From assembly GCA_009379825.1 (NCBI GenBank), contig WHTA01000008.1, positions 62,001 through 126,000 of the forward strand: a DNA stretch of 64,000 nucleotides, given 5' to 3'. The DNA comes from Streptosporangiales bacterium. Its GTDB lineage: Bacteria > Actinomycetota > Actinomycetes > Streptosporangiales > WHST01. The translations under genes were made by a program, and so were the position numbers. The notes beneath the pieces were generated by a model that made no database searches, was not told the DNA's origin, and worked only from the letters and a program-made list of their open reading frames with translations. Positions 22,126 to 24,383 of this stretch are shown here, piece by piece; positions within the stretch are counted from its first letter, which is position 1; each line of letters starts with the position of its first letter.

Positions 22126-22157
22126 GCAGCATGGCAGCATGGCAGCATGGCAGCATG
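22126..22157. repeat. Four tandem copies of the octamer GCAGCATG
   Basis: Four perfect head-to-tail copies lie at the 5' end of the IclR gene, 45 bp from the CocE start. Each unit contains an ATG, and because 8 is not a multiple of 3 the ATGs run through all three frames. The preceding bases (TGCAACACATGATGCA) form a TGCA-N8-TGCA palindrome that may be the operator. Confidence 0.9.
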
Positions 22158-22181
22158 GCAGGGGCGTCTGAGAATGGTCAA

Positions 22182-22953: not shown

Positions 22954-23508
22954 TCACCGCGGGCGCGTCCTCGCGTAGTGGGCACGCGCCTTCGCCCGGT
23001 TGCCGCAGCGGGTCATCGAGCACCACTGTCGGCTGCGCCGCTGCGAGAGGTCGACGAACCGCAGGCCGCAGTCGTCCGCGGCACACTCACGTACGGCGGC
23101 ATCGCCGGTGGCGAGCTCGATCGCGTCCACCGCTACGACGGCGAGGGCCGCCCCCACCGGGTCGGCGAGCCGGGCAAGGGACCGTTCGACGGTGCCGTCC
23201 GCGGTCAGCCGCAGCCGCGGTACGGGCAGCGCGACGGCGGCCGCCGCGTCGTTGAGCACGCGCACGGCACGCCGGGTCGGCGCGGGCGAGAGCAACACCA
23301 CGTCACATGCCTCGCGTACGGCGAGGAAACCGGCCAGCTGCCCGGCGGTGGGCCGTGGCCGGCGAACGACGAGACCGGCGGCGAGCAACCAGTCGGCCAG
23401 GTCGCCGGTCGTGACGAGCAGCTCCCGCCCGCCCCTCGGCCGGTCCCGCAGTGTGTTGAGCAGGTCCACCGCCGGCCTGCCGCCGTCGAATACCCAGTTG
23501 TCGCTCAT
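22954..23508 (-). CDS. CGNR zinc-finger protein (DUF1470/ABATE family)
   Basis: The 184-residue product has an N-terminal ABATE domain (GGRPAVDLLNTLRDR) and a C-terminal CGNR zinc finger with Cys in VRECAADDCGLRFVD and RQWCSMTRCGNRAKARAHY. These are predicted stress-linked transcription factors in actinomycetes. Its start codon is 17 bp from that of the divergent hydrolase gene, which it probably regulates. The 3' end nearly touches the convergent IclR gene. Confidence 0.88.
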   Translation of the reverse strand: MSDNWVFDGGRPAVDLLNTLRDRPRGGRELLVTTGDLADWLLAAGLVVRRPRPTAGQLAGFLAVREACDVVLLSPAPTRRAVRVLNDAAAAVALPVPRLRLTADGTVERSLARLADPVGAALAVVAVDAIELATGDAAVRECAADDCGLRFVDLSQRRSRQWCSMTRCGNRAKARAHYARTRPR

Positions 23509-23513
23509 CCAGC

Positions 23514-23520
23514 TAACCTA
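23514..23520. promoter_or_regulatory. Shared -10 element TAACCTA for two divergent leaderless genes
   Basis: Read rightward, TAACCT ends exactly six bases before ATG 23526. Read leftward, TAGGTT ends exactly six bases before ATG 23508. Both fit the TAnnnT -10 box of leaderless actinobacterial transcripts. Neither gene has room for a ribosome-binding site in the 17-bp gap. Confidence 0.6.
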
Positions 23521-23525
23521 ACCAT

Positions 23526-24383
23526 ATGAACCAGTTAGAGACAGGTACAGCGCTCGTCAGCGGAATCCGCATGCACTACCAGCGGGCGGGTGCCGGCCCA
23601 CCGTTGGTGCTCCTGCACGGCTGGCCGCAGACGTCGTACTGCTGGCACCGGCTCGTCGAACCGCTCGCCGAGACGTACACGGTGATCGCGCCCGACCTGC
23701 GCGGCTACGGCCGCACCGACAAGCCCAATACCGGTTACGACAAGCGCACCATGGCGACCGACGTCGCCGAGCTCGTACACACGCTCAGCTTCGAGCAGGT
23801 GGGCGTGGTCGGTCACGACCGGGGTGCGCGCATCGCGCACCGGTGGGCGCTCGACCGCCCCGACGAGGTCAGCCGGCTCGCCGTGCTCGACATCGTGCCG
23901 ACCCGCGAGATGTGGCGCCGGATGGACCACGTGCTCGCCAAGGGGTTCTGGCACTGGCTGTTCCACCTGCAGCCTGACCTCCCGGAACGCCTGGCCGGCA
24001 ACGACGTCGCCGGCTACCTGGGCTACTTCTTCGAGCGGTGGACGTACCGCCGCGACGGCCTCACGCAGGAGGCCATCGACGAGTACGTACGCGCGTTCTC
24101 CGCACCAGGCGCGCTGCGCGCCGGCTTCGACGACTACCGCGCCTCGTTCCCCACCGACGCCGCCGACGACGACGCGGACGCAGCCGCCGGCCGGCGGCTC
24201 GGCATGCCGCTGCTCGCGCTGTGGGGCGCGACCGGCCTCATCGACGGGCTGCCGGTGCTGGACATCTGGCGGGAGTACGCCGCCGACGTCAGCGGCACGG
24301 CCATCGCGGAGTGCGGCCACTTCCTCCCGGAGGAGCAACCGGCCACGGTGCTCGCACACATCCGCGACTTCTTCGGCAGCTGA
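23526..24383 (+). CDS. Alpha/beta hydrolase, haloacetate dehalogenase/epoxide hydrolase-like
   Basis: The 285-residue product contains LLHGWPQTSYCWHRLV (oxyanion hole), DLRGYGRTDKP and the nucleophile motif GHDRGARIAHRWALD, in which Asp rather than Ser is the nucleophile. A late GHFLPEEQP supplies the His. This pattern is that of fluoroacetate dehalogenase and related epoxide hydrolases. The Arg after the nucleophile and the FHLQPDLPE segment favour the dehalogenase subgroup. It is divergent from the CGNR regulator, and the pair looks like an inducible detoxification module. Confidence 0.87.
   Translation: MNQLETGTALVSGIRMHYQRAGAGPPLVLLHGWPQTSYCWHRLVEPLAETYTVIAPDLRGYGRTDKPNTGYDKRTMATDVAELVHTLSFEQVGVVGHDRGARIAHRWALDRPDEVSRLAVLDIVPTREMWRRMDHVLAKGFWHWLFHLQPDLPERLAGNDVAGYLGYFFERWTYRRDGLTQEAIDEYVRAFSAPGALRAGFDDYRASFPTDAADDDADAAAGRRLGMPLLALWGATGLIDGLPVLDIWREYAADVSGTAIAECGHFLPEEQPATVLAHIRDFFGS

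Follow-up and report, generated by a model that had tools for sequence, protein, structure and literature searches.

Positions 23509-23525 of the window, by which we mean the whole stretch of 64,000 nucleotides analysed here, separate two divergent genes by only 17 bp. This gap is likely to be the control region of an autoregulated divergon of two leaderless genes, in which a dimer of a CGNR zinc-finger protein would sit on a palindrome and thereby cover both promoters. On balance we also slightly favor a broader proposal, namely that the ABATE-CGNR proteins are widespread actinobacterial autoregulators that read TAACC-N9-GGTTA in leaderless promoters, that a single element of about 21 bp can at once be the operator of two divergent genes, their shared -10 region and their translation start, and that collapse of a two-operator spacer at this locus gave rise to an 18-bp bidirectional leaderless promoter.

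Two divergent genes and the gap between them

The leftward gene (22954-23508, minus strand) encodes a 184-aa member of the ABATE-CGNR family, with Pfam scores of 60.2 bits for ABATE and 66.3 bits for zf-CGNR against cut-offs of 24.4 and 24. A sequence search of the PDB with this protein returned no match; fold comparison of its AlphaFold model (mean pLDDT 89.7) recovered a single significant PDB match, Jann_2411 (3h0n; E 5.7e-6, probability 1.00, TM 0.55), whose fold the model shares. Four zinc-binding cysteines, C142, C147, C163 and C168, are invariant in 28 homologues, and at least one relative of the protein is found in 57 of the 61 genomes searched. The authors of the Jann_2411 structure proposed it to be a dimeric, ligand-sensing DNA-binding regulator (PMC2954205). 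The rightward gene (23526-24383, plus strand) encodes a 285-aa alpha/beta hydrolase (Pfam Abhydrolase_1) of the fluoroacetate dehalogenase/epoxide hydrolase-like type, with the PDB relatives 3qyj, 4bat and 3r3u; the closest solved structure is that of Alr0039, an epoxide hydrolase and fluoroacetate dehalogenase. Its GHDRGAR segment, which aligns with 3qyj and 4bat, contains the predicted Asp nucleophile motif GHDRG. Close copies of both genes are absent from two other genomes of the same genus, and horizontal acquisition or loss of the gene pair is possible.

The gap reads CCAGCTAACCTAACCAT and lies between the leftward ATG at 23508 and the rightward ATG at 23526, the distance from start codon to start codon being 18 bp. 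On the plus strand TAACCT (23514-23519), the predicted -10 element of the hydrolase gene, is followed by the six nucleotides AACCAT and then by the ATG; on the minus strand TAGGTT (23520-23515), the predicted -10 element of the CGNR gene, is followed by AGCTGG and then by the ATG. A re-reading of the sequence bears out the first-pass annotation, which had described TAACCTA as a TANNNT element on both strands exactly 6 nt from each ATG; its remark that neither gene can have a ribosome-binding site agrees with the finding of no Shine-Dalgarno-like sequence in either direction of the gap. Both genes have the hallmarks of leaderless genes, a TANNNT about 12 bp upstream of the start and no Shine-Dalgarno sequence, and TAACCT/TAGGTT (23514-23520) places a TANNNT on both strands over the same bases, as in bidirectional promoters. 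No -35 element is evident in either direction.

The annotated starts hold on their upstream side, where both ATGs are closed off by in-frame stops situated 12 nt before them and within the -10 elements themselves, namely TAA (23514-23516) for the hydrolase and TAG (23520-23518) for CGNR. As these stops bar upstream-extended proteins, leaders would need transcription to start farther back, within the opposite gene. There is no alternative CGNR start ahead of the conserved W5; a later hydrolase start at the codon-16 ATG (23571) is possible in principle, and would drop a segment that aligns in the orthologues.

The complete pattern CAT-N5-TANNNTA-N5-ATG occurs once in the 6.15-Mb genome and its reversed control not at all. 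The per-position frequency in the window is 0.0006 for TANNNT and 0.00003 for TANNNTA; given one TANNNT, the symmetry needs just one extra base (A 23520), so that the information sits in the two spacings. In 395 genomes of the class we count 128 sites of the pattern; the reversed control gives 51 and a variant with 9/9 spacing gives 33, an enrichment of 2.5-4 fold over both controls. Open reading frames of at least 80 aa stand on both sides at 5 of 30 sampled sites. The geometry is real and enriched, but genuine back-to-back pairs with it are rare. Other actinobacterial sites of this pattern that lie between two frames of at least 80 aa (L180, L181, L185, L190 and L193) are candidate back-to-back leaderless pairs. 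Elsewhere in the window (22126-22165), about four tandem copies of an 8-bp repeat, GGCAGCAT/GCAGCATG, lie at the starts of two divergent genes, one for a CocE-type hydrolase and one for an IclR-type regulator; every copy has an ATG in a different frame, so that copy number could alter the N-terminus or the spacing.

A palindrome that accompanies CGNR genes

What the first-pass annotation had overlooked is a 21-bp palindrome that overlaps both promoters and whose CTAACC half-sites are the source of most of the gap sequence. This predicted CGNR operator, CTAACC-N9-(A/G)GTTAG, lies at 23518-23538, agrees at 11 of 12 arm positions and spans the hydrolase ATG. Another CTAACC (23513-23518), adjoining the CGNR gene, appears to be the left-over half-site of a second operator: in Amycolatopsis loci a second copy of the palindrome adjoins the CGNR gene, and the window retains only a left arm, at the distance from the CGNR ATG that the left arm of that second operator has.

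A hydrolase-based search, combined with loci from a genome search, yielded 49 other divergent CGNR/hydrolase pairs, many of them from Pseudonocardiales; their gaps range from 21 to 158 bp. With the window included there are 50 pairs, and every one carries the palindrome CTAACC-N9-GGTTAG, 38 with 12/12 and 12 with 11/12 arm positions. It is found in none of 17 hydrolase orthologues in which no divergent CGNR gene was detected (scores 6-8), and in 933 background windows the score never exceeded 9. The locus displays, as autorepressed divergons do, a conserved palindrome that overlaps the promoters of a regulator and its divergent target, and the initial guess that the hydrolase is the target of the CGNR regulator is well supported by the conserved linkage and the shared operator. 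In 23 orthologues the palindrome crosses the hydrolase ATG with the offset found in the window, and there it encodes an N-terminus of the form MN[RQ]LE or similar. Its arm also forms a TTA leucine codon, the fourth of the hydrolase (23535-23537, plus strand) and the only TTA in the gene, which recurs in 22 orthologues whose operator is placed likewise. In actinomycetes of such high GC content TTA is seldom used, and one tRNA alone decodes it (bldA in Streptomyces).

The association extends to other CGNR genes. The 6.15-Mb genome holds only two operator sites at one mismatch or fewer (none for the reversed control), and both lie between a CGNR gene and a divergent neighbor; at the second (L200, 1501-1521, contig C37) these are a CGNR paralogue, 46% identical, and a CMD-family gene. 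This carboxymuconolactone decarboxylase-family gene is followed by one for a HAD hydrolase. Sites of the exact CTAACC form are too few to test across the class: 148 other genomes contain a single match, with no CGNR gene nearby. The sister form GTAACC-N9-GGTTAC, searched for in 297 genomes without regard to genes, has 22 sites, which is not above the 20 of the reversed control, so that the informative part is their location and not their number: 14 of the 21 loci read sit directly upstream of a CGNR gene. In many CGNR paralogues the palindrome abuts the start codon and contains the -10 element; a comparison of upstream regions across the CGNR family also found some genes with no such palindrome. 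Scoring inverted repeats in the family by arm pairing alone gave a spacer of 9 in 22 of 52 as against 9 in the control, a noisy signal in which spacers of 7 and 11 were also raised.

A second CGNR subfamily has a divergent Glyoxalase_6 partner, and here both start codons abut the ends of GTAACC-N9-GGTTAC across a gap of 21 bp. In several loci TATANT stands 6 nt before the start on the CGNR strand and TATAAN 7 nt before the partner start. These loci pack operator and start codons alike, and the compact architecture thus recurs with a different partner gene. Loci of this type are L207, L211, L213, L214, L216, L217 and L222, around position 1501-1521, the CGNR frame of L222 not being recovered. 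Residue 177 in the zinc-finger helix is His or Phe with TAACC half-sites and mostly Leu or Tyr with other arms, a link that is suggestive but no proof, since the sequences are related. From its conservation in the pairs and the location of its sites beside CGNR genes, the palindrome is very probably the DNA target of the adjoining CGNR regulator.

It is highly improbable that the palindrome belongs instead to another regulator, such as one of the IdeR/DtxR iron type, with CGNR as a bystander: all that speaks for this is the half-site, where GCTAACCTAA resembles an IdeR half-site, whereas the presence of the palindrome tracks that of a CGNR gene across several partner genes. An iron box was considered as the meaning of CTAACCTAA and rejected; one half-site matches by inspection, and the full 19-bp palindrome of the consensus is not present.

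Promoters and the proposed mode of regulation

On the CGNR side, TANNNT is found 5-7 nt ahead of the start in 41 of the 50 pairs, against a background of 0.0009 per position, often as a TAGAAT formed from the operator arm; the TAGGTT of the window matches these elements in position. The other nine pairs have no TANNNT at this distance, and some of them have Shine-Dalgarno-like leaders. On the hydrolase side, TANNNT stands at 5-8 nt in 28 of the 50 (at 8 nt in 22 and at 5-7 nt in six, the window included). Judged by these positions, the CGNR gene is very likely leaderless and the hydrolase gene probably so, and the earlier assertion of two leaderless genes survives with that difference in strength.

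The same annotation had made the single symmetric -10 the governing principle of the locus and had suggested comparing the gap in related genomes for conservation of TAACCTA. The element is present here, and was not seen in the other 49 pairs. Where both -10s occur they are mostly two separate ones, the hydrolase element being of the TACCGT type 8 nt from the ATG in 22 loci. Leaderless starts would on this comparison be a feature of the CGNR/hydrolase system at large, and the fused -10 appears to be confined to the window. We consider it unlikely that the symmetric -10 is itself the regulatory device, with competition between polymerase orientations deciding which gene is expressed. Its exact symmetry, the optimal start-to-start geometry and the enrichment of the pattern in the class favor such a device, but the -10s are separate in relatives that share the genes and the operator, and five E. 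coli bidirectional promoters that were tested proved too weak for competition at basal activity (PMC12825309). As a conserved device it was rejected, the fused element not being retained by the other pairs. The accompanying claim that only one gene can fire at a time is true in the steric sense, exclusion of polymerase at the fused -10 being physically unavoidable; given the basal weakness of the E. coli promoters, it is expected to matter only if one direction is strongly active.

We propose instead that the CGNR protein binds CTAACC-N9-GGTTAG, probably as a dimer, where the palindrome overlaps both the CGNR promoter and that of the divergent hydrolase gene. Both genes would be transcribed from a TANNNT -10, the mRNA beginning at or beside the start codon. 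From its site at 23518-23538 CGNR would cover the hydrolase promoter from -8 to +13 and, from -30 to -10, the -10 and spacer of its own promoter; in the simplest model it represses both genes, and a putative ligand, perhaps akin to the substrate of the enzyme, releases it. That CGNR activates the hydrolase from this palindrome is a still less probable reading than the symmetric device. The lack of a clear -35 element in either direction and the existence of divergent regulators that activate would suit it, but the site occupies positions, on the hydrolase side at the same offset in 23 orthologues, at which a bound protein is expected to block polymerase.

Under the autorepression model, the two promoters, which are separate in two-operator relatives with gaps of 47-53 bp, would have merged here into a common -10 that is written in overlapping half-sites (CTAACCTAACC) and serves starts at a distance of 18 bp. 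We infer that the fused form derived from separate promoters. In a tree of both proteins the window adjoins two loci that each have two operators and a 53-bp gap (support 0.62, low), a position consistent with spacer collapse though no proof of it.

The predicted operator would be the first predicted binding site for the poorly known ABATE-CGNR family: a search of open-access journal papers found no described operator or target site for CGNR regulators. Such regulators are common in actinobacteria, and a defined 21-bp operator together with a natural target gene opens the family to direct tests. The locus further illustrates that an operator, a -10 element and a start codon can share a single segment of DNA, and it suggests that bidirectional promoters may originate through loss of the spacer between two ordinary promoters.

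Relation to known systems

In bacterial bidirectional promoters divergent starts lie 7-25 bp apart with an optimum at 18 (PMC10268837, PMC12825309); at 18 bp the -7T and -11A of the two promoters pair, and an A at +1 gives a T at -18 (PMC10268837; see also PMC12825309). A shared -10 combined with an 18-bp distance between starts is this already known optimum geometry, and two back-to-back ATGs 18 bp apart fit it automatically. The locus resembles these promoters in its single -10 on both strands, the spacing of its predicted starts and the predicted A at +1 on both strands, here supplied by the start codons; it differs in the predicted leaderless mRNAs in both directions and in the placement of the -10 within the half-sites of a predicted local operator.

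About 19% of actinobacterial genes are predicted to be leaderless, with TANNNT some 12 bp upstream of the start (PMC3160421), and in M. tuberculosis 26% of the genes with a primary start are leaderless (PMC3898074). The two genes share with these the position of TANNNT and the absence of a Shine-Dalgarno sequence, and differ in standing back to back across a 17-bp gap. The CGNR protein resembles Jann_2411 in its two-domain fold with a CGNR treble-clef zinc finger, and that protein too was proposed to be a dimeric ligand-responsive regulator (PMC2954205); unlike Jann_2411, which has no known DNA target, it can be assigned a specific candidate palindrome and target gene. Finally, the arrangement recalls the autorepressed divergons of TetR- and MarR-type regulators, in which a divergent regulator and target enzyme have a common palindrome over both promoters, whereas here the regulator belongs to an unrelated family, a zinc finger takes the place of the helix-turn-helix, and the predicted operator reaches into the coding sequence of the enzyme.
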